In this document: positions 10,495 to 26,694 of the stretch, piece by piece
Layout: every line of letters starts with the position of its first letter
How positions within the stretch are numbered: position 1 is the first letter of the stretch
Assembly: GCA_003210115.1 (NCBI GenBank)
Contig: QCNM01000008.1
Span: 1-35,654 of the forward strand
Source: SAR116 cluster bacterium AG-426-A06
GTDB lineage: Bacteria; Pseudomonadota; Alphaproteobacteria; Puniceispirillales; Marisalimonadaceae
Reading direction: 5' to 3'
Length of the DNA stretch: 35,654 nucleotides
Made by a program: the position numbers and the translations under genes
The notes under the pieces: generated by a model
Told to the model about the DNA's origin: nothing
The model's database searches: none
Seen by the model: only the letters and a program-made list of their open reading frames with translations

Positions 10495-11460
10495 ATGTCA
10501 TATAGAAAAAATTTTAAGCTAGAAGGTGTCATCCCGGCAACATTACTTTCATTTAATGATGACATGTCGATTAATGAAAAGGAAAGTAGATCTCATATTA
10601 AATCCTGTGGTTTAACGGATGGGATTACAGCCATAACTGTAAATGGACATTCTTCAGAGATTCATGCTTGCAACTTTAAAGAACAAAAAAGGATTTTAGA
10701 ATTTTCTCTAGAAGAAGTAGGGGATAAGGTGCCAGTTATAAATGGCGTTTATTCTGATGGAAGTTTAGAGGCTGCAAAAATTGCAAGGATGGCACAAGAT
10801 TCAGGCGCATCTGCTTTATTATGCTTCCCTCCTCAAAGTATGAGTATGGGAGGATCACTAAGACCTGAAATGGCAATTGAACATTTTAAAAGAATATCTG
10901 ATGCATCTGACTTACCATTAATATGTTTTAATTATCCATCTTCTGGAGGGTTGTCTTACCCTTTTGAAACCTTATTAAAATTATTTGATGAAGTTTCAAC
11001 AATTAAAGCAATTAAAGACTGGTGTAATGAACCAATGTTGCATGAAAAACACATCAGAGTATTTCAAAATTTACCAAATCCAGTTAATGTGCTGACTACT
11101 CACAGTGCATGGTTAATGTCTTCTCTGGTAATGGGGGCAAGTGGATTATTGTCTGGAGCTGGTAGTGTAATTGCGCCATTACAAGTAAGATTATTCAATG
11201 CAATTAAAAATAATAATTTAAAAGAAGCTAAAGATATTAATGATAAAATATTTCCTTTAGTTCAACTATTTTATAAACCACCTTTTTTAGATATGCATAA
11301 TAGGATGAAAGAGACTTTAGTTATTTTAAATGCAATACAAAGAGCTGTAGTTAGGCCTCCTCTTATGAAATTACCATTTAAAGAAATTGAAGAATTAAAA
11401 AAGACAGTTAACAATATTAATTTAGATAATAAATTAAACTTTGTAAAAACAGTTGCATAA
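10495..11460 (+). CDS. DapA/N-acetylneuraminate-lyase superfamily protein (class I aldolase or hydratase-aldolase)
   Basis: A TIM-barrel protein of 321 aa. The N-terminal substrate-loop region reads TVNGHSSE (48-55), replacing the common GTTGE. The catalytic tyrosine is Tyr147 in CFNYPSS and the Schiff-base lysine is Lys174 in KAIKDW. This shows a working class I lyase centre acting on a pyruvate-type or other 2-oxo substrate. The C-terminus is longer than in true DapA and the substrate loop differs, so lysine biosynthesis is unlikely. A role in cleaving or hydrating a catabolic intermediate is more likely given the surrounding genes. It is the only plus-strand gene in the main part of the window and is convergent with the Mo hydroxylase I FAD gene, 8 bases away. 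The start has no ribosome site (see the leaderless promoter). Confidence 0.85.
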   Translation: MSYRKNFKLEGVIPATLLSFNDDMSINEKESRSHIKSCGLTDGITAITVNGHSSEIHACNFKEQKRILEFSLEEVGDKVPVINGVYSDGSLEAAKIARMAQDSGASALLCFPPQSMSMGGSLRPEMAIEHFKRISDASDLPLICFNYPSSGGLSYPFETLLKLFDEVSTIKAIKDWCNEPMLHEKHIRVFQNLPNPVNVLTTHSAWLMSSLVMGASGLLSGAGSVIAPLQVRLFNAIKNNNLKEAKDINDKIFPLVQLFYKPPFLDMHNRMKETLVILNAIQRAVVRPPLMKLPFKEIEELKKTVNNINLDNKLNFVKTVA

Positions 11461-11468: not shown

Positions 11469-12293
11469 TTAAATATTTTTAACCGAGCTTAAAATTGTTT
11501 TTTTACCAACTTTTCTTATCAAATCTCTTTTGTAAGTTGCTGAAGCATGTTGATCATCTTCTATATCTAAATTCCAAGCAAAATCATTTAACAATTCGTC
11601 AACAAATTTGAAATTTTTCATATCCCACTCAATTACTGTAGGCTTAGAAGGAATGCCGCCAAGTGTAAATCTAATTTTTTTATTATCGGTTACTACAGCA
11701 AATGAAGCTATAGCATAATCTGAGTATTTTTCTGAAACCTCATTAAATGCGTAACCTGTATCTTCTTTTTTAATAGGCAATTCTAATTTGATAGCTACTT
11801 CATTTGAATTTTTTGAAGTTAAAAGCGGCCCAAGGTAAAAATTATTAGCTGAAATAGTTCTGAGTTCTTTTTTACTTTTTAGATGAATTTTACCATTTAA
11901 AGCTAAAAAACATAAAGGTAGTTCAGATGTGGGGTCTCCATGGCAAATTGACCCTAAAACTGTTCCTCTGGCTCTATGTTGAATTTGACCTACATAAGGT
12001 ATTGATTGATAAATTAAAGGCAATTTACTTTTTAAATCTGACCAATTTTCAAGTTCTAATTGTCTAAATAAAGGGCCAATTTCAATTGTATTGTCTTTTT
12101 TTTCTAATGAAATTACATCTTTTAAAAAATTTATATCAATAATAATTTCAGGGTTTACAATTCTCATATTCAACATTGATATCAAAGATTGACCGCCAGC
12201 AAGAATTTGAGCTTTCTCACCATGAATATCCAAAGCATCAAGCACTTCATTTATTGAACTACTCTTAATATATGTAAAGTTACAAGGTTTCAA
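11469..12293 (-). CDS. Molybdenum hydroxylase I, FAD-binding medium subunit (CoxM/CutM type)
   Basis: A FAD-binding subunit of a xanthine dehydrogenase/CO dehydrogenase family enzyme, 274 aa. FAD contacts are visible in LAGGQSL (31-37) and the RARGTVLGSICHGDPTSELP stretch (107-126), the second a variant of the usual TIGGSxxxADPxxE. It passes electrons from the FeS subunit to an acceptor. The start codon is TTG at 12293: the first residues then align with those of the homologue at 26694 (MKPxxFxY), and TTG overlaps the TGA stop of the large subunit (TTGA), so translation is coupled. It is the last gene of the long minus-strand run. Its FeS partner is probably the gene at 19446-19952. Confidence 0.92.
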   Translation of the reverse strand: MKPCNFTYIKSSSINEVLDALDIHGEKAQILAGGQSLISMLNMRIVNPEIIIDINFLKDVISLEKKDNTIEIGPLFRQLELENWSDLKSKLPLIYQSIPYVGQIQHRARGTVLGSICHGDPTSELPLCFLALNGKIHLKSKKELRTISANNFYLGPLLTSKNSNEVAIKLELPIKKEDTGYAFNEVSEKYSDYAIASFAVVTDNKKIRFTLGGIPSKPTVIEWDMKNFKFVDELLNDFAWNLDIEDDQHASATYKRDLIRKVGKKTILSSVKNI

Positions 12294-15241
12294 ATTTTTA
12301 TACCAAAAACTCTAAAAAGTTTTTTTAAAAATGTTTGATTTGAACTTTTATTTAAAGCAAAAGATTGAAAAATTTGATTAACTAATAATTTTACCGATGA
12401 ATTTATTAATCTGTTACCAACTATCATAATTTTTCCATCTACTTTCGCTCCATAAGAATAAGCTAAAAAACTCTTTTTATTTTTATTAATAATTTCAATT
12501 TTAGCGACCCCATTTCCATTTCCAAGTTCACCCTGACCATTTCCAGCAATTTCAAAAGATTTATTTTGTTTTATTTTTTTTATAGAAACATTGAAGGAAT
12601 ATTCTCCTTTGACTGGTCCAATACTTAATTCAATTATTCCATTTAAATTATTTTTTGTTGTTTCTTTTAAAGATTTACATCCAGGAATAATTGTTTTTAA
12701 ATTTTTAAAATCAAATATTGTTCCCCATAATTTATTTTGATTAATATTTAATTCAAATTCTCCACTTCCATTTATTGGATAGCTTTTGAAATTGATATGT
12801 TTATTTATATGTTTAGGTTTTATTTCATTTTTATTTAAGTTTAAATATTGATGAACTTTTGTATTTGTTAGAGGAAGTTTAACATTTTTAATTTTTAAGG
12901 CGTCTGAGAAAGCGTTAGCAATAGCAACTGGGGTAGACATACAATTTCCTTCTCCAACGCCTTTTGAACCAAGAGGAGTAAATGGACTTGGAGTTTCTAT
13001 ATGAATTATCTCAGGTTCATTAACTTCATATGTTGATGGCAAGTGATAATCCTGAAAGGAACCAGATAAAAAACTTCCATTATCATTATATTTAAACTCT
13101 TCTAAAAGAGATGCACCAACTGCATGTGCATACGCACCATATATTTGACCATTTGCTAGCAGTGGGTTAATAATTTTTCCTGCATCATGTCCTGTAACAT
13201 ATTCATCGATTCTTATCTTGGATGTTATTGGATCAATTTCAATGCCACACACATCAAATACAAAACCATAAGCAAGTGATCCATTAATCTCATCTTTTTC
13301 ATTAGGAGGTCTCAATTTTTCATTACCCCAAAAAACAGTTTCTTTCAAACTTGGATTTAATTTTTCTGGCAAATTTCCAGGAGACCAATGAGGTATTCCA
13401 ACAAGTCTTTTGAAATTAAAGTAATTATCAGAATTTTTTTTGTCATAAACTTTTTCTTTATCAAATAAAATATTTTCACTTTTGCAATTAAGTTGACTTG
13501 CTGCAATTTTTTGTAGTTTTTTCTTTAGATTGTTTGCAGCATTAAAGGCTGAGCCAGCTACAGCTCCAGCAAATCTACTTGAGTAATTTCCTGCAGCTAT
13601 TGACCAAGCATCTTTATGTGTATCGTGAGTTGTGTTAACAAAAACATCATTAATTTTAATTCCAAATACATCAGCAACTATTTGAGACAAAATTGTTTTA
13701 TGACCTTGACCTTGTGGCAAGCTATCACATGTCACATAAACACTTCCTGTTGGACCAATTGAAACACTTGTTGATGCTAATGCTCCTCCTTTATGTCCAG
13801 TTTTTTCTCTGTCTTTATAGGGCAAAGCTGTTGTGACATAACCCATATTTGATATCGAAGGTTCAATTATTGCAGAATATCCAATGCCATAAATTTTACC
13901 ATTTTTAATCGCATTATTTTTTTTCTTCAAAATATTTTTATACGTAGAACTTTTAACAACTTTTCTTATAAGTTTTTGAAAATCACCTGAGTCTAATAAT
14001 GCTCCGGAGGGCGACTTATATGGAAATTGTTTTTTTTCAAGAAGATTAACTTTTATGACGTCAAGTACATTTAAATTTAATTCAACAGCAATTTGATGAA
14101 CTAATCTTTCTAACGCAAAATAATGTTGTGGTCCACCAAAACCTCTGTTCAGACCAGATGGAGTTTTGTTTGTTAATACTACTCTATTTCTACAGCTGAT
14201 ATTTTTTACTTTATATGCACCACTAAGATTTCCATGCATTCTATAAAGTGATGCTGGTTCAGGGGCCCTTGGGTAGGCTCCAACATCATCTATTTGATCA
14301 TAATCTAAAGCTTCAATAAGTCCTTTTTCATTAATACTTGCTCTTAATTTAGTTAACCTTCCTGTTGCTGAAGAAGCGGCCGTGAGATGTTCTAATCTAT
14401 CTTCCACCCAAATTACTTGTTTATTTGAAAGCTTTGAAGCTAAACACGTTAAAATAATCATAGGCATTATAGCTTGTTTTATACCAAAACTTCCTCCAGA
14501 ATCTTCAAAAGATATTAATCTTAGTTTTCCTTCTTCAACTTTAAGTGCACGAGATAGAACAGAGTGTAAACTAAAAGGACCTTGAAAATTTGATTTTACG
14601 TCATAAATTCCGCTTGCGGCATCATATTCACTATGAACAACAAACCCCTCTAGAGGAGTACAACTATTTCTTGGATACTCTATTTCAACTTCAACAATTT
14701 TATGAGATTTTGTAAAAAATTTATTTGGGTTTCCATATTCAAAATTTCTATCACTTACTACATTTGACTTAAAATTTTTTTTATGAACAAATTTGGTTTT
14801 TGTATTAATTGCTTCTTTTATAGAAACAACTGGTTGGTTGACAGAATACTCTACATCAATAAGTTGTAGTGCGTCTTCTCCAACATATCTAGATTTTGCT
14901 AAAATAATGGCTAATGGTTCACCAACGTAATGTACTTCATCAACAGCACAACACCAAGTTTTAAACTCTGTTCTTATTACAGACAATAGTGGGTTTGAAA
15001 TTTTACTAAAATCTTTTCCAGTAATAACACTGTGAACACCTTTGAGTTTTTTTGCTTTCGAAAAATCTATTCTTTTAATTTTTCCAGACGCATGTTCTGA
15101 TCGTAAAACTACTGCGTGAAGAGCGTCAGGTTTAAATGGTGTATCACTTCCAAATTGTCCTTTCCCATTCAGAAGTTTGTCATCTTCTACCCTACTTATA
15201 TTATTTCCAATAAAACAATCAATAGGTTGGTCTTCAAGCAT
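12290..15241 (-). CDS. Molybdenum hydroxylase I, large subunit with fused C-terminal CoxG (SRPBCC) domain
   Basis: A 983-aa protein, about 200 aa longer than normal CoxL/XDH large subunits. Residues ~15-800 are the molybdopterin-cytosine-dinucleotide binding subunit: SGGSFGIK near 251 (Mo-pterin loop), RGFGGPQHYF near 368, QGQGHKTILS, NYSSRFAGA, and the catalytic glutamate Glu764 in GVGEGNC. The AYxCSFR loop of true CO dehydrogenase is absent, so CO is not the substrate. Residues ~820-983 are a CoxG-like domain (GSGEFELN, then IIPGCKSL, GPVKGEYSF and GKIMIVGNRLI). The tail ends in a basic amphipathic segment (FLKKLFRVFGIKI). CoxG is normally a separate protein linked to membrane attachment of CO dehydrogenase. 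The fusion would place this hydroxylase at the membrane (inference). The stop overlaps the TTG start of the FAD subunit. Confidence 0.92.
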   Translation of the reverse strand: MLEDQPIDCFIGNNISRVEDDKLLNGKGQFGSDTPFKPDALHAVVLRSEHASGKIKRIDFSKAKKLKGVHSVITGKDFSKISNPLLSVIRTEFKTWCCAVDEVHYVGEPLAIILAKSRYVGEDALQLIDVEYSVNQPVVSIKEAINTKTKFVHKKNFKSNVVSDRNFEYGNPNKFFTKSHKIVEVEIEYPRNSCTPLEGFVVHSEYDAASGIYDVKSNFQGPFSLHSVLSRALKVEEGKLRLISFEDSGGSFGIKQAIMPMIILTCLASKLSNKQVIWVEDRLEHLTAASSATGRLTKLRASINEKGLIEALDYDQIDDVGAYPRAPEPASLYRMHGNLSGAYKVKNISCRNRVVLTNKTPSGLNRGFGGPQHYFALERLVHQIAVELNLNVLDVIKVNLLEKKQFPYKSPSGALLDSGDFQKLIRKVVKSSTYKNILKKKNNAIKNGKIYGIGYSAIIEPSISNMGYVTTALPYKDREKTGHKGGALASTSVSIGPTGSVYVTCDSLPQGQGHKTILSQIVADVFGIKINDVFVNTTHDTHKDAWSIAAGNYSSRFAGAVAGSAFNAANNLKKKLQKIAASQLNCKSENILFDKEKVYDKKNSDNYFNFKRLVGIPHWSPGNLPEKLNPSLKETVFWGNEKLRPPNEKDEINGSLAYGFVFDVCGIEIDPITSKIRIDEYVTGHDAGKIINPLLANGQIYGAYAHAVGASLLEEFKYNDNGSFLSGSFQDYHLPSTYEVNEPEIIHIETPSPFTPLGSKGVGEGNCMSTPVAIANAFSDALKIKNVKLPLTNTKVHQYLNLNKNEIKPKHINKHINFKSYPINGSGEFELNINQNKLWGTIFDFKNLKTIIPGCKSLKETTKNNLNGIIELSIGPVKGEYSFNVSIKKIKQNKSFEIAGNGQGELGNGNGVAKIEIINKNKKSFLAYSYGAKVDGKIMIVGNRLINSSVKLLVNQIFQSFALNKSSNQTFLKKLFRVFGIKI

Positions 15242-15246
15242 TTAGT

Positions 15247-16026
15247 TTAATTTCCTTTGTAGGAGGGGGGGCGTTTTTCAGAAAAACTCTCCACGCCTTC
15301 TCTGAAATCATTAGAACTTCTTAATCTTCCATATGCTTCGCCTTCAAGATCTATGGAAGTGTGAAGAGTTGCATTTTGAGTTGCATTTAAAACAGATTTT
15401 ATTGTTCGCTGAGCTAATGGAGATACGCTTATAAGTTCTTTAACAATTTTTTGTGTCATGTTTTCAAGTTCAGATTTTTCTACAAGTTCACAAGCAATGC
15501 CTAATTGATAAGCTTCTTCACCAGACAGTCTTTTTCCGCGCATAATAATGTTTTTAGTTCTTGAGATGCCAATCATTTTAGCTAATCTTGCAGATCCTCC
15601 TGAACCAGGTATCATTCCAATTTTCATTTCAGGGAGTGACAATTGAGAATCTTTTGTAACTATTCTAAAATCGCAAGCAAGGGAAAACTCAAAGCCAACT
15701 CCAAAACAATAACCTTGTATTGCAGCAATTACAGGTATTTTAATTTTTTCCGGTGTCATTACATTTTGCGCTAACATTGATAGATCCTCAGGTGTTTCTT
15801 CAAGAAAACCAGAAATGTTTCCGCCCGATGAAAAGTTATCACCATCTGCTCTTAAAACAATTACTCTTATGTTTTTATTTTTATCAAGTTCATAAAATTG
15901 GTTTGCCATTACTTTTCTTTGAGAAAATAAAACTACATTCAAAGGAGGTCTTGACAAAACTATGTCAGCTCTATGGTTGCTTTCATCAATTTCTACTCTA
16001 AATCCATCAAATTTTGATATTTTCAC
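15247..16026 (-). CDS. Enoyl-CoA hydratase/isomerase (crotonase) family protein
   Basis: A crotonase of 259 aa. The oxyanion-hole strand NFSSGGNISGF (64-74), the Glu113 position in GVGFEFSLACDF and the Glu133 position in LPEMKIGMIPGSGG are all present, 20 residues apart as in active hydratases. The N-terminal RPPLNVVLFSQ is typical of a subgroup often found in aromatic-CoA clusters. Crotonases hydrate, isomerise or hydrolyse CoA thioesters. In furoate degradation one of them (HmfE) acts on the product of a molybdenum hydroxylase, which is a possible model here. The start is GTG at 16026 with an AGAGG ribosome site; a nearby ATG in another frame stops at once. The stop is 5 bases before the Mo hydroxylase I large subunit ATG. 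Confidence 0.9.
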   Translation of the reverse strand: MKISKFDGFRVEIDESNHRADIVLSRPPLNVVLFSQRKVMANQFYELDKNKNIRVIVLRADGDNFSSGGNISGFLEETPEDLSMLAQNVMTPEKIKIPVIAAIQGYCFGVGFEFSLACDFRIVTKDSQLSLPEMKIGMIPGSGGSARLAKMIGISRTKNIIMRGKRLSGEEAYQLGIACELVEKSELENMTQKIVKELISVSPLAQRTIKSVLNATQNATLHTSIDLEGEAYGRLRSSNDFREGVESFSEKRPPSYKGN

Positions 16027-16043
16027 AACATACCTCTGTAAAA

Positions 16044-17519
16044 TTATTCTGCAGCTTTATCGCGCTTTATAGGTACATCATATTTACTCATTACTTTATC
16101 AACTACATCTTCAAAATGATTCCAAGGTGTTTCTCTAAAGTTATGATTTCTTATAATAAATGAGGCACCAGCATAAAATTTTTCATATTGTAGTTGTCTT
16201 CCGGCAAATTCTGATCCAACAACATCCCATGCTAATTTAAATAATTTCATTCTATCTAAAGCATTCATTTGAGGTGTTTGAAAATAAGTTTCAAAGTCAT
16301 TTAATAATTCTTTATTTTTCATGACTTTAATACTCGCAGGCATTTGAAACACACCACCACCGCATAAAGTTCTTAATTCATCAATAATCATCGAATAATT
16401 ATCAGTACAAAAATTTAAGGCTGCATACATAATACGCCTATTAAACGTTTTAAAATTTTCTGGCCAATTCTCGGCATTTTCAATTTGTCCATAAATCATT
16501 CCAGAAAGGGTTGACTCTAAAGCTGATATTTTGCCTAGAGTTTCTCTTACAGCAGGAACTTCATCTGCGCCAGTAGCTTTTGCGACTTTATAAAAGAGGC
16601 CAACAATTAATTCCATTTTTGACCAATATCTTACATTAGATTGATGATTTCCATAACAGTGTGCAGGAGTTTTAAAGTATATTTCTCTAGCTTGAATTGC
16701 GTCATCTTTAACAAATATCCTTTCCCAAGGAACTAAAACTTTATCGCACATTACTAGGACATCTGTTTCGTCTTGGTTCCAAGATAAAGGTGCATCAAAT
16801 TGATTGTCATAATGATTTGAAAGAGGTTGTCTCATCCACAAAGATAGTCCATTTGTATTACACGGTATCGCACAGGTTATTGATTGTTTTACTTGGTCAG
16901 GTGCTAAAGGTATCAAATTTCCAATCCAAATTTCATTTGCAAAAATTGCGCTAGTTGCTAGCATTTTCATCCCTGATATGACTACACCTTTATCATTTTC
17001 TAATACCACTGACAAAGTTGGGATTGGCAAATTTCTTTTTTGATAAAACTCAGGATTTCTTGCTGCTTGGGGAGGCACTACAGCGTATGATGCAAAAACA
17101 TCATTTTTCTTCATATATTCATAATAATTAAGTAAGTTACCACTAAATTTATATTTTTCATTGTCAAATATATCTGTATTAGTTGACATGCCAGTAACAA
17201 AACTTGCAACATGATCCATTGATCTTCCCATCATTCCAGAGGTTTGGTCAGCGATGATTTTATGAGCTTTTGAACGTTTCCTTAAGTCATCTTTATTTTT
17301 AGCTTGAATAAACCAGGTAGAAAAAGTCTCTCCGTTTTCTTGATAGGTTAAGTGATCTTGATATTCTTTATTATGTTTTAAATCATAGAGTCCTGCAACG
17401 GTTTTAGCTGCTCTTTTTAATGATGGATGTTTTGTAACATCGGAAACTTTTTCGTCACCGATAAATACAACTCTTCCATCTCGAAGTTGTTCTAAATGGT
17501 CTTTTCCAGTTTTAATCAT
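16044..17519 (-). CDS. HpaB-family FADH2-dependent monooxygenase (4-hydroxyphenylacetate 3-hydroxylase-like)
   Basis: A protein of 491 aa, the normal length for HpaB/PvcC/TftD-type monooxygenases with an acyl-CoA dehydrogenase fold. The family motif GRSMDHVASF lies at 98-107 (Arg99; His103 where many HpaB proteins have Tyr). The C-terminal domain has ELRTLCGGGVFQMPAS and FYAGASFIIRNHNF. The cysteines that bind the iron-sulfur cluster in the related 4-hydroxybutyryl-CoA dehydratase are missing in the 95-105 region, so a monooxygenase is the better call. The expected reaction is hydroxylation of a phenol, hydroxy-heterocycle or its CoA ester, using O2 and FADH2 supplied by a separate reductase. 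No HpaC-like reductase gene is in the window. ATG overlaps the cupin stop by one base (TAATG), with a GAGGA ribosome site. Confidence 0.87.
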   Translation of the reverse strand: MIKTGKDHLEQLRDGRVVFIGDEKVSDVTKHPSLKRAAKTVAGLYDLKHNKEYQDHLTYQENGETFSTWFIQAKNKDDLRKRSKAHKIIADQTSGMMGRSMDHVASFVTGMSTNTDIFDNEKYKFSGNLLNYYEYMKKNDVFASYAVVPPQAARNPEFYQKRNLPIPTLSVVLENDKGVVISGMKMLATSAIFANEIWIGNLIPLAPDQVKQSITCAIPCNTNGLSLWMRQPLSNHYDNQFDAPLSWNQDETDVLVMCDKVLVPWERIFVKDDAIQAREIYFKTPAHCYGNHQSNVRYWSKMELIVGLFYKVAKATGADEVPAVRETLGKISALESTLSGMIYGQIENAENWPENFKTFNRRIMYAALNFCTDNYSMIIDELRTLCGGGVFQMPASIKVMKNKELLNDFETYFQTPQMNALDRMKLFKLAWDVVGSEFAGRQLQYEKFYAGASFIIRNHNFRETPWNHFEDVVDKVMSKYDVPIKRDKAAE

Positions 17520-17905
17520 TAAAATTCCTCATCATTTTTGTAATAATGTAATTCAAACAAAGTACAGCCATTTTCAGATTTAAATGGACCATGATAAACT
17601 CCAGGTGGTCTACATGCATAAGTTGCTTTGTTAAATGTTTTTCCTCCATTGCCTTGTTCATCATTGCCAACAATTAAATCACCAGAAACTAAAAAAACTT
17701 CTTCCCAATGATCATGCACAAAAGGTTCTTTTGTATATACACCTGAATCAAATCTTAATAATCTAGATCTGCTTCCAGTTTTTGTTTCTTCATTTAAGTC
17801 AGATGCTAGGATTTTTTGTTTAATGCCCTCAGGATATCCATAAGGAGTTTCCCAGCCTTCTTCATTAGAAACTAATTCAAATTCAATATGTGGTTTTCGT
17901 TTCAT
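17519..17905 (-). CDS. Small single-domain cupin
   Basis: A protein of 128 aa with one beta barrel. Metal-binding residues fit His64 and His66 in VHDHWEEV with Glu68 or Glu69, and His105 in PPGVYHGPF. This is a metal-binding cupin of the ChrR/acetylacetone-dioxygenase-like size class. Functions in the family range from ring-cleaving dioxygenase to metal-dependent hydrolase or isomerase, so the exact job cannot be told. Its overlap by one base with the HpaB-type monooxygenase suggests that the two act on consecutive steps. A gatekeeping or product-handling role after hydroxylation is a reasonable guess. Confidence 0.8.
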   Translation of the reverse strand: MKRKPHIEFELVSNEEGWETPYGYPEGIKQKILASDLNEETKTGSRSRLLRFDSGVYTKEPFVHDHWEEVFLVSGDLIVGNDEQGNGGKTFNKATYACRPPGVYHGPFKSENGCTLFELHYYKNDEEF

Positions 17906-17929
17906 AATAAGATTATTATAGTTTTGATA

Positions 17930-19453
17930 TTAATTGTCTAGTTCATATTCTCCAGCTAAAATTTTTCTTCTTAAAATTTTTCCTGTTGGAGATTTTGGGA
18001 TCTCTTTTATAAAAACATAAGATTTTGGTCTTTTAAAATTAGATAGATTTGATTTTTTACAAAAGTCATCTAATTCATTAAAATTAATTTTTTTATTACT
18101 TTTTATAAAAGCTGTAACTTTTTGGCCCCACTTTTCATCTTTTAGTCCAACTATTACTACCTCATTAACGTCTGGATGTAATGAAATGACATTTTCAATT
18201 TCTATTGGGAAAATATTTTCTCCACCAGTAATAATCATATCATCAACCCTTCCAGTTACGAACAAATCACCATTTTCGTCATAATACCCTGTGTCTTTGG
18301 TAAAATACCAATCATTAATAATTGAACTTTTGTCAGCATCAGGTCTTTCTAAATAACCTTCAAAAGCTTCATCATTTTTTATATATGCAATAATTTCACC
18401 TTCTTCATTTATTTTTGTTTTAGAATTAATATTTTTAGAATTTATCTTAACAACTCTTATATTTTGGTTTATTCCTGCCTTTCCTGCAGATCCAGGTTTG
18501 TTTAATGCGTTAGGTTCTATTGTAAAGGTATAAATTTCAGAAGAGCCATAATGATTTATTAATTGAGAAGCTGAAAAGCTTTTCTTTATTTTTTTTATTA
18601 ACCCGTCTGTCATTGGTGCTCCAGCAAATCCTAGCTTATGACAGGTTAATAATTTTTCTTTTTTAAAGTAGGGGGAATTTATCAAATCATGATAAAGCGT
18701 AGGAACTAAATATAAAGATGAAATTTTATTTTGATTAATTAACTCTATAGCTTCTTGTGGGTTATATTTAGGTTGAGCAACAAAATTACCATTTACTAAT
18801 GTCATAGATAATAAAGATCTTACACCCATCGTATGATATAAGGGCATCACACCTAAAGTAGCTTCATATCTTTCATATCTATTTTGTGCGATGTGTGCTA
18901 TTGCAGAACTTCTCTCTGCAAAATGAGATCTTGGAACACCTTTTGGTTTACCAGTAGTACCTGAAGTATATAGAACAATTGAACAATCTGTATATTTTGC
19001 TTCTGATGAATCAAATATCACTTTCAAGTTTATCAAACTTTTAAAATTTTCATATTTCGAACTTTGTGAAGATGTAGAAATTTTAATTATAGAATTTGAT
19101 AAATTAGATGATTGTATTTCTTTTTCAGAATAGTCATCGCATATTATGCATTTCGAATTTGAATTGTTTAAAAAAAAATTTATCTCTTCAGATTTCACTC
19201 TCCAATTTATTGGAACTATAACAATTCCAGTTAGTTGACACGCCCAGTGAATTGTACACGCCTCAAACGTATTTGGTAAAAGTGTTATTAACTTATCACC
19301 TTTTTTTAATCCCATTTTTTTAAACGAGATTGCTAAACTTGAAATTTTATTCAACCAATTAGAATAGTTTAGATGTTTGTTTTGATAGGTAATTGCTATT
19401 GCTTCAGGACAACGATCAACTGAAGATAAAAATGTTGTTCCTAAATCAATCAT
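17930..19453 (-). CDS. Acyl-CoA synthetase (AMP-forming), copy 1
   Basis: An adenylate-forming ligase of 507 aa. The P-loop-like motif YTSGTTGKPKG lies near residue 162, NHYGSSE follows in the middle, TGRVDDMIITGGENIFP lies near 400, and the C-terminal catalytic lysine region SPTGKILRR lies near 492. It forms an acyl-AMP and then an acyl-CoA from a carboxylic acid, ATP and CoA. The chain length and substrate are not readable, but two such enzymes in a run of molybdenum hydroxylases, crotonase and monooxygenase point to aromatic or heteroaromatic acid activation. The start ATG overlaps the stop of the FeS-subunit gene by 8 bases. Confidence 0.93.
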   Translation of the reverse strand: MIDLGTTFLSSVDRCPEAIAITYQNKHLNYSNWLNKISSLAISFKKMGLKKGDKLITLLPNTFEACTIHWACQLTGIVIVPINWRVKSEEINFFLNNSNSKCIICDDYSEKEIQSSNLSNSIIKISTSSQSSKYENFKSLINLKVIFDSSEAKYTDCSIVLYTSGTTGKPKGVPRSHFAERSSAIAHIAQNRYERYEATLGVMPLYHTMGVRSLLSMTLVNGNFVAQPKYNPQEAIELINQNKISSLYLVPTLYHDLINSPYFKKEKLLTCHKLGFAGAPMTDGLIKKIKKSFSASQLINHYGSSEIYTFTIEPNALNKPGSAGKAGINQNIRVVKINSKNINSKTKINEEGEIIAYIKNDEAFEGYLERPDADKSSIINDWYFTKDTGYYDENGDLFVTGRVDDMIITGGENIFPIEIENVISLHPDVNEVVIVGLKDEKWGQKVTAFIKSNKKINFNELDDFCKKSNLSNFKRPKSYVFIKEIPKSPTGKILRRKILAGEYELDN

Positions 19454-19952
19454 TTATAGATCTTTTAAACCTATTTGCCATAACTTCTTTAACTGCTTTG
19501 ATTATGCCAGTATAACCAGTACATCTACAAATATTACCACTTAATTTTTTTCTAATTTCTTCATCACTGAGATATTGTTTTTTTTCTAAAAGATATACTA
19601 TTGTTGTTAAAAATCCAGGTGTGCAATAGCCACATTGAAGGGCATGATATTTTTTAAATGCCTCTCTTAAATCATTATATGTACTATTTTCTGATATACC
19701 TTCTATAGTAGTTATTTCACCATTATCTATTTGAGGAGCCAGCATTAAACAAGATCTTACTGGTTCATTATTAAACAATATTGTACATGCTCCACAAATA
19801 CCATGTTCACATCCAACATGAGTACCAGTCATTCCACAATCAAATCTCAAAAAATCACTTAAAAGTTGTCTTGGTTTCACTTGTTTTTGCAATAATTCGT
19901 CATTAAGTTTAAAACTTATTTTTAACCTATTGTCATCATTATAGGTTTTCAT
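19446..19952 (-). CDS. Molybdenum hydroxylase I, [2Fe-2S] small subunit (CoxS/CutS type)
   Basis: A protein of 168 aa with both [2Fe-2S] clusters. The plant-ferredoxin-like cluster uses Cys48, Cys53, Cys56 and Cys68 (GCEHGICGAC). The second, molybdenum-proximal cluster uses Cys107, Cys110, Cys142 and Cys144 (QCGYCTPGF, ICRCTGY). It carries electrons from the molybdenum centre to FAD. It is separated from its probable partners (large subunit 12290-15241 and FAD subunit 11469-12293) by ligase, cupin, monooxygenase and crotonase genes, an unusual order. It is assigned to enzyme I because enzyme II has its own small subunit at 25347. Confidence 0.93.
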   Translation of the reverse strand: MKTYNDDNRLKISFKLNDELLQKQVKPRQLLSDFLRFDCGMTGTHVGCEHGICGACTILFNNEPVRSCLMLAPQIDNGEITTIEGISENSTYNDLREAFKKYHALQCGYCTPGFLTTIVYLLEKKQYLSDEEIRKKLSGNICRCTGYTGIIKAVKEVMANRFKRSIND

Positions 19953-19953
19953 T

Positions 19954-21489
19954 TTAAATACTTTTTTCTTCGTAATTTTGTATTAATTTATATCGCATAG
20001 TTTTTCCAGAACCAGTTCTTGGGATAAAATCAATTTTTTTTACAATATCAGGAATTTTATATTTTGATAACTCATTGGTACAAAAATTTTTAATTTCATT
20101 TTCATTAAAAATTTCACCCTCTTTTAAAATAACAAAAGCAGCTGGAATTTCACCAAGTTCTGAATGTTTTAGTCCAACAACAGCACAATCTAAAATTTTT
20201 GAGTTTTTCAAAATAGCTTCTTCAACTTCTGTCGGGGAAATATTTTGTCCTCCTCGAATAATAATTTCTTTAAGTCTTCCGGTTATTGTAATAAAACCAT
20301 TTAAATCCTGTTTTGCTAAATCTCCTGTATAATACCAACCATTTTTTAAAATTTTATCTGTTTCATTTTCCTTTTTATGATATCCAATCATAACATTTGG
20401 ACCTCTACATATTAATTCACCCTCTTCACCAGGCTTTACATCAAGGTCATTATCATTAACAATTCTTACACTCATGCCAGGTAAAGGCAGACCACATGAT
20501 CCCATGTTTCTTTCTTTGCCAGACCAATTCATCGTGACCATTGTTGAAGTTTCTGTAATTCCATAGCCATCTAAAAGCTCTAAGTTAAAATATTCTTCAA
20601 AATCATAATTTAATTTAGCGGGCATTATAGCTCCAGCAGATACACATTTGTTAATATTATTTAAATTTAAGTTATCTTTTTTTCCGGTCGATAGAAGATA
20701 ATGAAACATTGTCGGAACACCGGGTAGAAAATTAAATTCTTCTTTATTAGTTTTATTAAAAATATCGATAGGTGAAAATTTTGGTAGCAAAAATTCTGAT
20801 GCTCCAGCAGCTAGTATTCCAAGTACACTTAAATTTAATGCATATGAATGGAAAAGAGGTAAAGGTGATAAAACTTTTGAGTTTTCATTTAAACCAGCGA
20901 TTGGCATCCAGCATGATGCTATTACCCAAAGCATTCCCCTTGTTGTAAGTAAAACGCCTTTTGGTTGACCTGTTGTCCCAGAAGTGTAGAGGATATAACT
21001 GGGTTTATTAATATCGTCTTTTAATAAAATAGATTGATGATTTATCTTTCTTATTTTTGTGAGATTTAAATCTGCTTTTTGATCATCAACAGTAATAAAT
21101 TGTATTTCATTTTTTAACTCTAATTGTTTTTTAATTTTATCTTTAATTTCATTTGTCGTGATTAAAATTTTTGTGTTTGAATCGTTCAATTTATATTCTA
21201 TTTCAGATAATGTTGAGTCATAGCTTATAGGAACAACCAAACAACCTAATCGTATAATTGCAAAACAAGAAACAATCCAATTCACTGAATTAGGGAGGAT
21301 TATTGATGCAGCATCACCATAGTTCAGTTTTTTTTCATTGAGATAAAAGGATAAGCTTTTTGTTTCAATATTAAGGTTTTCATAAGAAATCTTTTCTGTT
21401 TGATCAGCATATGCAATTTTATTTTTTAATTCTTTTGACCGTTTTTCAATTAAATCGTTAATTGGCTGGATTATGTCTTTTTTTATCAT
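19954..21489 (-). CDS. Acyl-CoA synthetase (AMP-forming), copy 2
   Basis: A second adenylate-forming ligase of 511 aa with YTSGTTGQPKG near residue 166, LDGYGITETS near 305, GRLKEIIIRGGQNISP near 402 and IPRTGSGKTMRYK near 490. All catalytic motifs are intact. It differs enough from copy 1 in the substrate-binding half to suggest a different acid substrate rather than a recent duplication. ATG at 21489 lies 17 bases after the SDR stop, and its stop lies 1 base before the FeS-subunit ATG, so it belongs to the same long transcript. Confidence 0.93.
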   Translation of the reverse strand: MIKKDIIQPINDLIEKRSKELKNKIAYADQTEKISYENLNIETKSLSFYLNEKKLNYGDAASIILPNSVNWIVSCFAIIRLGCLVVPISYDSTLSEIEYKLNDSNTKILITTNEIKDKIKKQLELKNEIQFITVDDQKADLNLTKIRKINHQSILLKDDINKPSYILYTSGTTGQPKGVLLTTRGMLWVIASCWMPIAGLNENSKVLSPLPLFHSYALNLSVLGILAAGASEFLLPKFSPIDIFNKTNKEEFNFLPGVPTMFHYLLSTGKKDNLNLNNINKCVSAGAIMPAKLNYDFEEYFNLELLDGYGITETSTMVTMNWSGKERNMGSCGLPLPGMSVRIVNDNDLDVKPGEEGELICRGPNVMIGYHKKENETDKILKNGWYYTGDLAKQDLNGFITITGRLKEIIIRGGQNISPTEVEEAILKNSKILDCAVVGLKHSELGEIPAAFVILKEGEIFNENEIKNFCTNELSKYKIPDIVKKIDFIPRTGSGKTMRYKLIQNYEEKSI

Positions 21490-21506
21490 TGAGCTATTCC
21501 AAATTA

Positions 21507-22262
21507 TTAAATCATACTATATCCGCCATTGATGCTAAATGTTTGTCCAGTAATCCACTCAGCATGCTTTGAGCTTAAAAAAATTACCATTGGCGCAACA
21601 TCAGAAGTTTTTCCTAATCTCTTAATTGGATATGATTTTAGTATTTTATCCATATTTTTTTCTAGAATATCATTATCTGTATGAGATGTTTTTACAAGTC
21701 CTAATGATATGGTGTTTACAGTAATAGAATATCTGCCAAATTCCTTTGCAAGTGATTTACCTAATGCAATAGTACCACCTCTTGCTGCAGCTGTTATTGC
21801 TAAATTTGCTTCGCCAATTCTTGAACTGTCACCGACTATATTTATAATTCTACCATCTTGATTATTTATCATTTTTTTTGAAACTAAATGACAACAATAA
21901 ATAGTGCCTTTTAGACTTATATCTATTTGTTTGTTCCAGTCATCAATATTTGTTTCTAAAAATTTTTTAATTTTAGTGAATCCTGCATTATTGATCAAAA
22001 TATCAATATTACCAAAATCTTTGTAGATCTTTTGCAAAACATCTTGAGTTTCATTAAATTTTGAAATATCTAATTTATATGCTCTGGCTTGAACTCCAAA
22101 TTTTTTAATTTCGTTTAAAGTTTCTTCAGCTTGGTTTTCTGACGAGTTATAAGTGAAAGCAATATTTACTTTTTCTGAAGCTAAGCTTAATGCAATTTCT
22201 TTTCCAATATTTTTGGACCCTCCAGTCACTAAAGCTACTTTATTTTTTAATTCAAAATTCAT
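21507..22262 (-). CDS. Short-chain dehydrogenase/reductase family protein with substituted catalytic residues
   Basis: An SDR of 251 aa with a normal cofactor site: TGGSKNIG (13-20), LDIS at 64-67 and NNAG (91-94), and a normal C-terminus (ITGQTFSINGGY). The active site is not normal. Aligning IINIVGDSSRIG with the FabG pattern places Gly144 at the catalytic Ser, Thr157 at the Tyr and Arg161 at the Lys (ITAAARGG instead of YxAAKxG). Ser116 is at the Asn position (DISLKG). Serines 146 and 147 are close by but out of register. It may bind NAD(P)H and act as a non-classical enzyme, or be a regulatory or structural partner. The gene overlaps the Mo hydroxylase II large subunit by 11 bases, so it is probably expressed with it. 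Confidence 0.88.
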   Translation of the reverse strand: MNFELKNKVALVTGGSKNIGKEIALSLASEKVNIAFTYNSSENQAEETLNEIKKFGVQARAYKLDISKFNETQDVLQKIYKDFGNIDILINNAGFTKIKKFLETNIDDWNKQIDISLKGTIYCCHLVSKKMINNQDGRIINIVGDSSRIGEANLAITAAARGGTIALGKSLAKEFGRYSITVNTISLGLVKTSHTDNDILEKNMDKILKSYPIKRLGKTSDVAPMVIFLSSKHAEWITGQTFSINGGYSMI

Positions 22263-24591
22263 TTTTTTCCTTGTTTTTGATTAAAGTATATAATTTGTTA
22301 GGAGTAATTGGAAGTTCAGTAATTTCAATATTGAGATGTTTAAGAGCATCACTCACAGCATTGGCAATGGCACCTGTCGCTCCAATTGTTCCGCCTTCAC
22401 CCATTCCTTTAAATTTCCCTATATTATTTGGTAAAAAATTTTCTAAATGTGAAATAGAAATTTCTGGAACATCAAGTGAATTCGGTATTAAATAATCAGC
22501 TAGTGTTGCTGTTTCTAACTGACCATTTTCGTTATACTTCATCTCTTCAAATAAAGCAGCCCCAATACCTTGCGCAACTCCTCCTTGAACTTGACCGTCA
22601 ACAATCATTGGATTAATTACTTTTCCACAATCCTCAGCTACAACATAATTTTTAATTTTGATTTTAAAAGTTTCAGGATTAATTTTTACAGTTGCTATGT
22701 GAGTTGCTGTAGTACTAGCTCCAAAAATAGGGTCGTAAGATTCAATAAAAATTAAGGGTTTTCTTAATTTTATAGGTAGAGTTTGCATATCGGAGTATAC
22801 AATTCTTGATAATTCTGGAAAACTTAGTTTTTGGTTAGAGTTTTTTTGAGTAATTAAATTATCCTCTATATCAATTTCAGTCTTAGGTACATTTAAAATA
22901 AAAGAAGCAACATTTAGAATATGATTTCTGGCTTTTTTTGAAACTTTTATTGCCGCACCACCAGCTAATGCAGCACTTCTACTAGCATATGTTCCAGTTC
23001 CATGTGTTATTAGAGAAGTATTTCCCTGTTTTATTTTGATTGAGTTTGGTGTAACACCTAAGTGATCTCCAACTACTTGAGATAAAGTGGTTTCTAAACC
23101 TTGTCCATGAGATGCTATACCAAATGTAGCAGAAATACTTCCTGTAGAATCTATTTCTAATATCGAAGTTTCTGACCCTGTGTTAAGAGGCATGCCTGGT
23201 GCAACTGAAATTTTGGAACCTATTCCAGTGAGCTCACCATATGTTGCTATACCAACACCCTCCCATTTTTTTGTTGTTTTAATTTTATCGTAGTCTATTA
23301 AACTTAAAGCTTTTTTTAAACATTCTTCAAAACCTACTTTATCCCAAACTATACCAGAGCCAATTTTATAAGGTTGCTCGTTCTTTCGAATTATATTATT
23401 GAGTCTTAGTTGAGAAGGGTTCATGTTAATTTTTCTGGCTGCCATGTCGACCAAACTCTCAATGACAAATACTGCTGCAGGTCTTCCAACACCTCTATAT
23501 GGTCCAGTAGGTGGCTTGTTAGATGTAATACATTTTACATTTGAATAAAAATTTTTAATCTTATATGGACCTTGTAAAAAACCTGCAACTTGCATTGGTT
23601 CCAGAGCAGCTGTCCAAGGATAAATTGAATATGCTCCAATATCTCCATAAACATTTGAATTTAAGCTTATAAAATTCCCCTTTTCATCTAGTAAAAGTTC
23701 TGCTTCTATTATTTCTTCAAAACCTTGACTGGTTGTTAAAAGGTCCTCATATCTGTCAGATACCCATTTAACTGGGGTTCGTAGTTTATTAGCAATTGCA
23801 ACTACAATCAATTCTTCCATATATAAAGAAGCTTTACCCCCAAAACCTCCTCCAACATCTGGAGCTATTACAGTAATTTGATTTCCATTAATTCCTAAAT
23901 AGGTCAATATTGCGTCTTTTATAATGCCAGGAACTTGTGTCGAAGAATATAGAGTAAGCTCATTAGTTCTTTTGTTTATATCACAAACATATGATCTTGG
24001 TTCCATTGCAAGAGGCGTCTTTCGACCCATTTTAAATATCTTTTTTATACTTATTAATTCATTAAGATTGACATCTTTAATATCACCTTGAGAAAATGTT
24101 CTTTCTAAGATTACATTGGTTTTTAAAGAAGGGTGAACAAAATTTTTAGTTTCATTAGATGCTTTTATTGTATCTATAATTGGTTCTAATTCTTTTAATT
24201 CAATATTGATTAAGCTTATTGCATCCTCTGCTATATATCTATTTTTTGCTACAACTACTGCAATTGGTTCTCCTAGATATCTAATTTTTTTTTTACATAA
24301 AATATGCTGTTTTGTTGGAAGATATTTTTTCATATTTGACTTTGATATAATTGGAGAAATATGTTTCAGATCATCATATAAAAAAATGCCATAAACATTT
24401 TCTAATTTTTTTGCTTCTTCCAAATCTATAGAAATTATTTCACCATGAGAAATCTCGCTCCTTAAAAAAGCGACATGATACATTCCTGGAAAATTAATAT
24501 CTGCTGTGTATTGTCCGTTACCATTTAGTAATCTTTCATCTTCAAACCTCAGAACATTTTTTCCTACATATTTTGTTTTACTTTTATTCAT
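22252..24591 (-). CDS. Molybdenum hydroxylase II, molybdopterin-binding large subunit
   Basis: A 779-aa large subunit of normal size for the CoxL/XDH family. Visible motifs are RFEDERLLNGNGQY at the N-terminus, VGGGFGGKAS near 248 (Mo-pterin loop), GPYRGVGRPAA (second pterin contact), SHGQGLETTLSQ, GTYASRSAALAGG and the catalytic glutamate Glu732 in KGMGEGGTIG. It hydroxylates a carbon, usually next to a ring nitrogen or oxygen or on an aldehyde, using water as oxygen source. The AYxCSFR loop of CO dehydrogenase is absent. Unlike enzyme I it has no CoxG extension. Its FAD and FeS subunits lie just upstream (26694-25347), separated by a lactonase gene with which it is directly adjacent. Confidence 0.94.
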   Translation of the reverse strand: MNKSKTKYVGKNVLRFEDERLLNGNGQYTADINFPGMYHVAFLRSEISHGEIISIDLEEAKKLENVYGIFLYDDLKHISPIISKSNMKKYLPTKQHILCKKKIRYLGEPIAVVVAKNRYIAEDAISLINIELKELEPIIDTIKASNETKNFVHPSLKTNVILERTFSQGDIKDVNLNELISIKKIFKMGRKTPLAMEPRSYVCDINKRTNELTLYSSTQVPGIIKDAILTYLGINGNQITVIAPDVGGGFGGKASLYMEELIVVAIANKLRTPVKWVSDRYEDLLTTSQGFEEIIEAELLLDEKGNFISLNSNVYGDIGAYSIYPWTAALEPMQVAGFLQGPYKIKNFYSNVKCITSNKPPTGPYRGVGRPAAVFVIESLVDMAARKINMNPSQLRLNNIIRKNEQPYKIGSGIVWDKVGFEECLKKALSLIDYDKIKTTKKWEGVGIATYGELTGIGSKISVAPGMPLNTGSETSILEIDSTGSISATFGIASHGQGLETTLSQVVGDHLGVTPNSIKIKQGNTSLITHGTGTYASRSAALAGGAAIKVSKKARNHILNVASFILNVPKTEIDIEDNLITQKNSNQKLSFPELSRIVYSDMQTLPIKLRKPLIFIESYDPIFGASTTATHIATVKINPETFKIKIKNYVVAEDCGKVINPMIVDGQVQGGVAQGIGAALFEEMKYNENGQLETATLADYLIPNSLDVPEISISHLENFLPNNIGKFKGMGEGGTIGATGAIANAVSDALKHLNIEITELPITPNKLYTLIKNKEKNEF

Positions 24592-25350
24592 TTAATTATA
24601 TTCGATTCCTAATTTAAAATTTTGGTTCCATTGCAAATAATCATGTCCACAAATTAAGTTAATTTTTTTTTGAGAAAGTTTCTTAATTTTTTGATAAGAC
24701 TTTAAAAGTTCAGTTTTATTCCAAGCATTTTTAGGAACTTCTTCAAATTCTAAATTACGTAAAAGACTTACAGCGTCAGACGCAATTAAAAATTGATTTT
24801 TGTCTAAATTTACTAAAAGACCAATTGAACCAGGAGTGTGGCCAAAAAGATTAATTGTAACAATTTTAGAATTATTAAAAAAATCAAACTCCTCAGAAAT
24901 TTTTTTTAATCCCATTGGCAAATCCCATTCATTTTTAATATATCCAAATCTTTTTGCATCAGATGAATTAGCTGCGTGAAACTCATTATTATGACAATAA
25001 AATTCAGCATTTGTAAAAAATTCATTACATCCACAATGATCAGGATGTAAGTGTGAATTAATAACAATATCAATATCTGTTGGCTTTATATTTTTTTTAT
25101 TAAGTTCGGAGATTAAATTTATTCCATTCATGTCTTTAGGTTTCATTATTTTTGATAATCCACCCCAGCGTTTTTCTGCGTTGGTTTCAACAGATGGGTG
25201 ACATCCCGTGTCAAATAGTATATTTAAATTTTTGTACTGAATTAGAGTTGATATAACTGGTAATAAGAATTTTTCATCATCTATTATTTCTGGAATAAAT
25301 ATTTTCTTTTTGATTTCAATCTGCCCTGAGTTTAAAAAGAAAAGCTTCAT
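24592..25350 (-). CDS. Metallo-beta-lactamase fold hydrolase, AHL-lactonase/4-pyridoxolactonase-like
   Basis: A protein of 252 aa with a complete di-metal site: His100, His102, Asp104 and His105 (SHLHPDHCG), His171 (FGHTPGS), Asp192 (IASDAVS) and His236 (CGHDYLQW). Size, motif spacing and the TGCHPSVE and GWGGL-like N-terminal pattern (RWGGL at 61-65) match the lactonase branch that includes N-acyl-homoserine lactonases and 4-pyridoxolactonase. Its place inside a molybdenum hydroxylase operon (4-base overlap with the FeS gene, directly next to the large subunit) argues for ring-lactone or enol-lactone opening in catabolism rather than quorum quenching. The substrate is unknown. Confidence 0.85.
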   Translation of the reverse strand: MKLFFLNSGQIEIKKKIFIPEIIDDEKFLLPVISTLIQYKNLNILFDTGCHPSVETNAEKRWGGLSKIMKPKDMNGINLISELNKKNIKPTDIDIVINSHLHPDHCGCNEFFTNAEFYCHNNEFHAANSSDAKRFGYIKNEWDLPMGLKKISEEFDFFNNSKIVTINLFGHTPGSIGLLVNLDKNQFLIASDAVSLLRNLEFEEVPKNAWNKTELLKSYQKIKKLSQKKINLICGHDYLQWNQNFKLGIEYN

Positions 25351-25826
25351 TTAATTCCCTTGTGAGCTAAGATTTCATTTGCAGCTTTAATTATATTTTC
25401 ATAGCCTGTACATCTACATAAATTTCCTGATAATGCCTCTCTAATCTCATTTTCAGAAAATTTAATTTTAGATTTTAGAAGTTCATCAATTATCATTAAA
25501 AACCCTGGTGTGCAAAACCCACATTGAAGAGAGTGATGAGCTTTGAATTTTTCTAAAATATTTCTAGTTTCAGGTTTCTTTTTAAAACTTTCAACCGTTT
25601 CAACTTTTTTTCCATCTAGTTGAACTGCAAATTTAAGACATGATCTTGCTGTTAAACCATCAATTTTTATTGTGCAAGAGCCACAAATTCCATGTTCACA
25701 TCCTACATGTGTACCAGTTAAATTAAGGTTATCCCTCAAAAAATCTGATGCTAAAAGTCTAGCAGGAACCGTTAAATCATATTCAATTCCATTTACTGTA
25801 GTTTTTAGTTGGATTTCATGTGACAT
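25347..25826 (-). CDS. Molybdenum hydroxylase II, [2Fe-2S] small subunit
   Basis: A protein of 159 aa with two [2Fe-2S] clusters: Cys43, Cys48, Cys51 and Cys63 (GCEHGICGSC), and Cys102, Cys105, Cys137 and Cys139 (QCGFCTPGF, LCRCTGY). The frame is open up to an ATG at 25850, but that would add residues absent from the family and overlap the FAD gene further. ATG at 25826 gives MSHEIQLKTTVNG, a normal N-terminus, with an 11-base overlap with the FAD gene. It transfers electrons from molybdenum to FAD in enzyme II. Confidence 0.92.
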   Translation of the reverse strand: MSHEIQLKTTVNGIEYDLTVPARLLASDFLRDNLNLTGTHVGCEHGICGSCTIKIDGLTARSCLKFAVQLDGKKVETVESFKKKPETRNILEKFKAHHSLQCGFCTPGFLMIIDELLKSKIKFSENEIREALSGNLCRCTGYENIIKAANEILAHKGIK

Positions 25827-26694
25827 TTGAAATAACTCTTGAGTAAACACATTTTTTTAACAATTTTTTCAAAAGAGAATCAGATAAATAGTTTTTATAA
25901 TCAACTGACCCATGATTATCATTAACTGGGTTAATTGCCTCAAATAAATCTAATTTTTTGTAGATAGACAAATCTTGATATATATTTTTTCCAGTTAATT
26001 TTTTTTCAATTTTTTCTAATCTTATTATTTTTTCGTCTACACCACCAATTGCAATTCTAGCATTTTTAATAGTTTCGCAATTATCTTCTAATTCTAAAAT
26101 TATACCTGTTTCTACTATCGCGAAATCTCCCTTACGAGAACTGTGCTCTTCAAATGCCCAACAATATTTATTTATTTTTGGTAATGAAACTGAAATAACA
26201 ATTTCATCATCTTCGATGTTTGTAACAAAGTGACTATCAAAAAAATCATTTACCAAAATTTCTCTTTTTTTAAATTTATTTCTCACATTAATTGTTGCAT
26301 TTAATAATGAAATTAATAGGGGCCATTCTGAGGAAGGGTCTGCGTTTACAATACTACCCCCAATTGTTCCTTGATTTCTAATCGTTTGATGAGCTACATA
26401 TTTCAATGCATATGAAATTATTGGAAAAAACAATTTTATCAAATTAGAATTAATAGCATTAGTATGAGTTAAAAGGGAACCTATTTCCAGGCTTGATGAA
26501 CTTTCACTTACAAAATTTAGATCTTTAATATCATTTATATCTAATAGTATGTCAGGCTGACCAAGTCTAAAATTCATAATAGGAACTAAACTCTGTCCGC
26601 CTGCAATGATTTTAATATTTTCTTCAGAATTTAAAATATCAAGTGCACGTTCAAGTGAATTAGCTTTAAAATATTTAAAGTCACTAGGCTTCAT
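25816..26694 (-). CDS. Molybdenum hydroxylase II, FAD-binding medium subunit
   Basis: A CoxM/CutM-type FAD subunit of 292 aa. FAD-binding motifs are intact: AGGQSL (31-36) and the TIGGSIVNADPSSEWP stretch (110-125), closer to the consensus than the corresponding part of enzyme I. The first residues (MKPSDFKYFK) align with those of the other FAD subunit, supporting the start. The gene begins 18 bases after the LivF stop, so the importer and the enzyme look co-transcribed. Gene order FAD, FeS, lactonase, large subunit. Confidence 0.93.
   Translation of the reverse strand: MKPSDFKYFKANSLERALDILNSEENIKIIAGGQSLVPIMNFRLGQPDILLDINDIKDLNFVSESSSSLEIGSLLTHTNAINSNLIKLFFPIISYALKYVAHQTIRNQGTIGGSIVNADPSSEWPLLISLLNATINVRNKFKKREILVNDFFDSHFVTNIEDDEIVISVSLPKINKYCWAFEEHSSRKGDFAIVETGIILELEDNCETIKNARIAIGGVDEKIIRLEKIEKKLTGKNIYQDLSIYKKLDLFEAINPVNDNHGSVDYKNYLSDSLLKKLLKKCVYSRVISNVT

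Follow-up and report, generated by a model that had tools for sequence, protein, structure and literature searches.

The closest described system is the furoate operon hmfABCDE of the Cupriavidus basilensis HMF14 type, which combines a CoA ligase (HmfD), a three-subunit Mo hydroxylase carrying a CoxG fusion (HmfABC) and a crotonase (HmfE), with small gene overlaps and with Liv- or BenE-type importers nearby. Reference hmf operons were chosen by gene content, not through a characterised sequence, and gene order was treated as typical of, not as defining, membership of hmfABCDE. UbiD and UbiX genes lie beside the reference operons of Cupriavidus and Paraburkholderia, together with a GMC oxidoreductase in the latter, and the gene content of the references agrees with the hmf descriptions in excerpts of two papers (PMC6678421; PMC12064950). 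Two further systems share elements with the locus studied here. The clusters of flavin reductase, HpaB, cupin, amidase and DUF2848 genes of Caballeronia NK8 and Thioclava also have an HpaB-cupin pair, with the same Arg-His-Tyr (R-H-Y) residues, and 4-hydroxyphenylacetate 3-monooxygenase HpaB has the same fold and triad arginine. In the Thermus enzyme (TtHpaB), the residues R100, Y104 and H142 are crucial in substrate binding according to a passage of a review (PMC10816480).

The window, i.e., the whole stretch of 35,654 nucleotides that was analysed, is the entire contig C8 of a 1.33 Mb genome (G000) that is 57% complete and split into 111 contigs. The nearest named relatives comprise genomes of the SAR116 cluster, a name that leads to the order Puniceispirillales in the NCBI taxonomy, and a single alphaproteobacterial genome; they share 94-97% identity with the window in HpaB. 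Every function that a preliminary description had named for positions 11469-21489 was matched by Pfam and NCBIfam, with the genes on the minus strand. The CoA ligase, the three-subunit Mo hydroxylase and the crotonase do occur in one block, and the added HpaB monooxygenase (16044-17519) and cupin (17519-17905) are both present. That description implied a single ligase, but the block holds two, namely the HmfD-type ligase at 17930-19453 and a second ligase at 19954-21489 that turned out to belong to another module. The features of the window are listed below.

10495-11460, plus strand: DHDPS-family protein, divergent from the block (PF00701; 59% homolog beside hmf in G328)
11469-12293, minus strand: HmfB-type FAD subunit of enzyme I (Pfam FAD_binding_5; 36% to the Dinoroseobacter hmf FAD subunit)
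12290-15241, minus strand: HmfA-type Mo large subunit of enzyme I with fused C-terminal CoxG (Pfam; full-length alignment; HmfA clade)
15247-16026, minus strand: HmfE-type crotonase (46-58% to seven hmf crotonases; HmfE clade support 100)
16044-17519, minus strand: HpaB-fold flavin monooxygenase of the R-H-Y kind (Pfam HpaB_N and HpaB; nearest structure Thermus HpaB)
17519-17905, minus strand: small cupin, conserved partner of HpaB (Cupin_7, 26.6 against a cut-off of 27, just under)
17930-19453, minus strand: HmfD-type acyl-CoA ligase (48-51% to seven HmfD-position ligases; tree support 99-100)
19446-19952, minus strand: HmfC-type 2Fe-2S subunit of enzyme I (Fer2_2; assigned by position)
19954-21489, minus strand: second acyl-CoA ligase, not HmfD, cassette II (24-27% to HmfD sequences; occurs solely with cassette II)
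21507-22262, minus strand: SDR oxidoreductase, cassette II (Pfam; 48% homolog beside hmf in G321)
22252-24591, minus strand: Mo hydroxylase II large subunit, cassette II (with quinoline 2-oxidoreductase, 98/94; 49% homolog beside hmf in G321)
24592-25350, minus strand: metallo-beta-lactamase-fold, lactonase-like protein, cassette II (Pfam Lactamase_B)
25347-25850, minus strand: 2Fe-2S subunit, cassette II (Pfam)
25816-26694, minus strand: FAD subunit, cassette II (Pfam)
26713-31361, minus strand: Liv-type ABC importer with two ATPases, two permeases and a binding protein (Pfam)
31457-32605, minus strand: BenE-family transporter (PF03594)
32618-35653, minus strand: module III, with UPF0280-like protein, 6-hydroxynicotinate-reductase-like protein and Mo hydroxylase III cut by the contig end (tblastn)

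The block differs from hmfABCDE in that its genes run C-D-[cupin-HpaB]-E-A-B and not in the uninterrupted A-B-C-D-E order. It is quite probably an hmfABCDE furoate operon in rearranged form, carried by a SAR116-type genome that is available in fragments. Chance is excluded because the large subunit, the ligase and the crotonase each fall in the hmf clade on separate trees, and because the block is kept in 14 SAR116-type relatives, one of which was seen in part. Scanning the window for Rfam families and for tRNA genes gave no matches.

Enzyme I, its ligase and its crotonase

The large subunit of enzyme I is 44-46% identical over its whole length, CoxG included, to six proteobacterial hmf large subunits. 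The CoxG domain (PF06240) forms residues 827-962 of the protein; all six of these references show the same fusion, and in Geobacillus CoxG is a separate gene. The closest full-length plasmid matches belong to operons ordered large subunit, FAD subunit, 2Fe-2S subunit, ligase and crotonase. In a 44-row tree, from which near-duplicate SAR116 rows had been dropped, the large subunit was placed inside the HmfA clade with an SH-aLRT of 100, and a 27-row mixture-model tree gave the same placement with a bootstrap/SH-aLRT of 100/100. The outgroups were 4-hydroxybenzoyl-CoA reductases above the NCBIfam cut-off (six rows in the larger tree and two in the smaller), CoxL including 1n5w (four and two rows, respectively), a fragment of E. 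coli XdhA and the quinoline oxidoreductase 1t3q, and all of them fell outside the HmfA clade; the partial Mo large subunit III of the window was kept out of all trees. The preliminary description had proposed that enzyme I hydroxylates a CoA ester, a view that a grouping of its large subunit with free-substrate enzymes would have contradicted. The large subunit stood apart from the quinoline, CoxL and XdhA types, which were the free-substrate types sampled, as the nicotine-type 7dqx and an isoquinoline-type enzyme are absent from these trees. Besides, an assignment as 4-hydroxybenzoyl-CoA reductase was rejected on an equivalog score of 299 against a cut-off of 994.6 bits and on its separate clade, an assignment as CoxL on a score of 345 against 991 and on its position outside the HmfA clade, and an assignment to the quinoline type on the position of 1t3q.

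The two partner enzymes were likewise compared with hmf sequences by phylogeny, as that description had suggested, and the ligase at 17930-19453 was found in the HmfD clade and the crotonase in the HmfE clade. The crotonase is 25-30% identical to E. coli CaiD, PaaF and PaaG and has both glutamate positions of the family, which we take to be catalytic. The ligase at 19954-21489, with its 24-27% identity to HmfD sequences, was rejected as HmfD. Placement in the HmfA clade and the presence of HmfD and HmfE partners together support hydroxylation of a heteroaroyl-CoA by enzyme I as the best inference, with furoyl-CoA itself as a putative substrate.

Gene junctions are also shared with hmf operons: hmfA and hmfB overlap by 4 nt in the window, the same as in L031, L032, L033, L034, L036 and L063, and hmfC and hmfD overlap by 8 nt, the same as in L031-L034 and L063. 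The 2Fe-2S subunit at 19446-19952 remains with the hmf block in relatives without cassette II; it was assigned by position because its pairwise identity is nearer to the 2Fe-2S subunit of cassette II (52%) than to one HmfC (45%). UbiD (HmfF) was found in none of the 58 genomes of the family. Hence the FDCA branch is absent, and the HMF/FDCA upper pathway was ruled out. HmfF is dispensable for furoate itself, and P. pseudoalcaligenes is also described without it in an excerpt of PMC6678421.

Distribution and residues of the HpaB-cupin pair

The locus is a variant of the hmf operon, and the conserved HpaB-cupin insertion is the part of real interest. Between hmfD and hmfE, the window has a cupin gene and an HpaB gene, and so have 13 of the 13 SAR116-type relatives that show this stretch; in the fourteenth relative (G006) the contig begins within HpaB and continues with the crotonase, large and FAD subunit genes. 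Outside SAR116, HpaB or cupin genes were found between ligase and crotonase in none of the 13 complete alphaproteobacterial hmf blocks. These 13 are the loci with all five hmf functions among 25 examined, out of 27 places with HmfA-like large subunits of which one is the window and another, a fragment in G199, was left out. Six annotated plasmid hmf operons are likewise without the insertion. A furoate operon with a flavin oxygenase and a cupin in its middle is unlike the other furoate operons examined.

HpaB orthologs with at least 78% identity occur in 17 of the 58 family genomes, namely in the same 16 that have an hmfA ortholog and in G061, whose contig ends within HpaB; the 16 co-occurrences are not independent events, owing to shared ancestry. 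With G056, which has a 35% HpaB of the amidase-linked type, the number of family genomes with an HpaB rises to 18. The genome scan for HpaB gave 37 loci, of which 14 have an hmf block and 23 do not, the latter being 58-75% identical in HpaB. In these 23 non-SAR116 loci with a window-type HpaB, a cupin was present in 16 and DUF2848 in six, and an hmf large subunit was found in none within the examined flank, which is short on several contigs. The cupin is near HpaB in SAR116 and in most of the other loci. Two environmental contigs titled Bordetella parapertussis (L089 and L092) carry the HpaB-cupin pair, and their titles seem mislabelled.

Compared with the NK8 and Thioclava clusters, the SAR116 block has an HpaB only 35% identical to the amidase-linked ones and contains none of the amidase, DUF2848 and reductase genes. 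A flavin reductase was not found in the 57% complete host genome; a PF01613 protein is present in 51 of the 58 family genomes. DUF2848 was not found in these 58 genomes, in a search that had no positive control match. Elsewhere this domain recurs by HpaB-cupin pairs of both types (L063, L064, L065, L084, L085, L087, L091, L097 and L100).

By sequence (214 bits) as well as by fold, Thermus HpaB is the nearest solved structure to the window HpaB. At the sites of TtHpaB R100, Y104 and H142, the window protein has R99, H103 and Y145, i.e., the tyrosine and histidine of the triad are exchanged. This R-H-Y arrangement was observed in 24 of 24 aligned rows, comprising the window, 20 of the 23 non-SAR116 relatives (the partial genes L109-L111 being left out of the alignment) and three amidase-type proteins from Caballeronia, Thioclava and G056, and two phenol hydroxylases of the same alignment have R-Y-H. 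The HpaB of L154, which is from another clade and lies beside an HmfA-like gene, has R-F-H as read by eye. Since Arg-His-Tyr stands where phenol hydroxylases have Arg-Tyr-His, the window kind of HpaB is probably not a phenol hydroxylase. A true 4-hydroxyphenylacetate hydroxylase was rejected on the same residues and on a score of 305.5 against an equivalog cut-off of 480.2 bits. The AlphaFold model of HpaB, with a mean pLDDT of 78, supports the fold only. For the cupin, the predicted fold (pLDDT 89.6) has acetylacetone dioxygenase 3bal as its best solved match, with a TM score of 0.66, a match not close enough to assign a reaction, and its profile gave no match to solved structures at E 0.01. 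Caballeronia NK8 has an amidase-linked HpaB-cupin pair roughly 5-8 kb from hmf, such a pair is also close to hmf in G328, and pyrrole 2-carboxylate monooxygenase is listed in HpaB-type group D in an extract of PMC6165268. On these grounds some heteroaromatic acid is a likely substrate of HpaB, with the reservation that the two HpaB types are only 35% identical.

Proposed route and competing readings

The chemistry of the proposed route is carried over from published hmf work and from general knowledge of Mo hydroxylases, family membership being given by phylogeny. The product of the HmfD-type ligase would presumably be 2-furoyl-CoA or a closely related heteroaroyl-CoA with a five-membered ring. 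On this thioester, enzyme I (11469-12293, 12290-15241 and 19446-19952) would hydroxylate ring C5 with oxygen taken from water, and the HmfE-type crotonase would carry the 5-hydroxy/oxo product towards 2-oxoglutarate and CoA. The HpaB-cupin pair may feed this route from the side with the help of O2, in that HpaB would hydroxylate a second electron-rich five-ring acid, e.g., pyrrole-2-carboxylate, and the cupin would perhaps open that second ring. This side entry for a pyrrole-2-carboxylate-like acid is put forward tentatively. The complete picture, in which a merged SAR116 operon for five-membered heteroaromatic acids would join a Mo/water route on furoyl-CoA to a flavin/O2 route on a second ring, both leading to 2-oxoglutarate, is rather unlikely to hold as a whole.

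If the route holds, a mostly uncultured ocean lineage gains furan-type acids as a concrete candidate carbon source; if the merged picture holds as well, the R-H-Y HpaB with its cupin would represent a new type of heteroaromatic oxygenase across Proteobacteria. In any case, a widespread HpaB-cupin pair with an exchanged pair of active-site residues is marked as an enzyme of interest. In the literature searched, which did not include the main hmf survey (Donoso 2021) and so does not establish priority, SAR116 and furoate were not mentioned together in any paper, and no paper combined SAR116, xanthine dehydrogenase and aromatic. Among papers on two of HpaB, cupin and furoate, no title was about furan breakdown, and searches on DUF2848 and on marine furan use gave nothing usable.

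The native substrate could instead be a different heteroaroyl-CoA, derived from a substituted furoate, from pyrrole-2-carboxylate or from thiophene-2-carboxylate, with HpaB and cupin catalysing an obligatory step of the same linear pathway. The constant presence of both genes inside the SAR116 operon fits this reading. So does the large-subunit tree, in which the closest sisters of SAR116 HmfA are members of the HmfA clade without HmfD or HmfE neighbours (91/98 in the 27-row tree, below the level starred by the program), one of which (L154) adjoins an HpaB of another kind. Because L153 and L154 belong to the HmfA clade without such neighbours, phylogeny does not settle between furoyl-CoA and a related five-ring acyl-CoA. 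However, HmfD and HmfE types are both kept, as in the operons known for furoate, and no gene indicates a particular other ring, so that we hold this alternative to be possible, if on the unlikely side. The HmfA/B/C-like enzymes of L153, L154 and L155, all without HmfD or HmfE neighbours, adjoin another ligase.

It is less probable that HpaB and cupin serve some unrelated function and are merely carried along, having been caught in the hmf operon of a single lineage. Genomes of beta- and alphaproteobacteria do contain orthologous HpaB-cupin pairs unaccompanied by hmf, but the position of the pair is kept across three genera, and HpaB has changed more slowly than the large subunit, the window and genus g4 sharing 80-81% identity in the former and 58-60% in the latter. 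That enzyme I might be a free-substrate Mo hydroxylase of the quinoline or nicotine type is very improbable: generic domain matches do not tell the types apart and 1t3q is its second-best structure by sequence, yet its tree placement and operon content speak against it, and it is enzyme II, not enzyme I, that groups with quinoline oxidoreductase. Equally hard to maintain is a radical enzyme of the 4-hydroxybutyryl-CoA-dehydratase type acting on a CoA ester. It shares the fold of the HpaB-family protein and is matched through 1u8v and 6vjr, but these matches (76 and 51 bits) are much weaker than the 214 bits of Thermus HpaB, and the conserved motif near residue 99, in which two ligands of the dehydratase cluster presumably lie, contains no cysteine.

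Cassette II, transporters and flanking genes

Cassette II is separate and optional, and we infer that it would act as a second module to ligate, hydroxylate and open a related ring. It is present in 7 of the 13 relatives readable at this place and cleanly missing in the other six, which have 21-68 nt from the 2Fe-2S gene to the ABC ATPase gene. Enzyme II groups with quinoline 2-oxidoreductase on long branches but is set apart from it by its association with a CoA ligase, an SDR and a protein that resembles lactonases. For this lactonase-like protein, the top NCBIfam model, an AttM-type lactonase, scored 110 bits and so falls short of the 390-bit cut-off for an equivalog call. In G321 and G414, from another family of the class, the FAD and 2Fe-2S subunits, Mo enzyme II (49%) and SDR (48-50%) directly follow hmfE; the link of cassette II to hmf is therefore not private to SAR116. 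Between the window and G057 (window 19446-34899), identity is 97-100% from the 2Fe-2S gene of enzyme I to the hydroxynicotinate-reductase-like gene, with 80-96% from the second ligase to the FAD subunit, a pattern that suggests homologous recombination within the cluster.

The Liv binding protein is 50% identical to one beside hmf in G328, a locus that also has the DHDPS homolog and a hydantoinase pair, and only 25% identical to its hmf-adjacent counterparts in L033 and L034. A BenE gene lies beside hmf in Paracoccus yeei (27% identity to the window BenE) and, according to a section of PMC6678421, in P. pseudoalcaligenes. With identities of 25-27% to hmf-adjacent proteins, the transporters are linked to hmf by kind and not by orthology, except for the match in G328. 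The tblastn matches of module III are annotated as 6-hydroxynicotinate reductase, with up to 65% identity and with UPF0280 and Mo enzyme neighbours, and the 6-hydroxynicotinate-reductase-like protein itself matched no Pfam or NCBIfam model. Beyond module III, SAR116 relatives have a hydantoinase A/B pair, as do Roseobacter plasmids with the same set.

On the other side, the DHDPS-family gene adjoins the block in many SAR116 relatives. Further out, positions 1318-8133 beside the cluster encode a hybrid histidine kinase of 1802 aa with multiple PAS domains, together with a receiver protein and a protein that combines a receiver with an adenylate/guanylate cyclase; these possibly act as a sensor of the cluster's substrates. 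In G047 (L061, 7536-13050), BoxB and BoxC (equivalog above cut-off), a benzoate-CoA ligase family protein and an alpha/beta hydrolase are encoded beside the hmf block, and two genomes of the same SAR116 genus (G012 and G022) have genes of similar size in the same order as this Box set.
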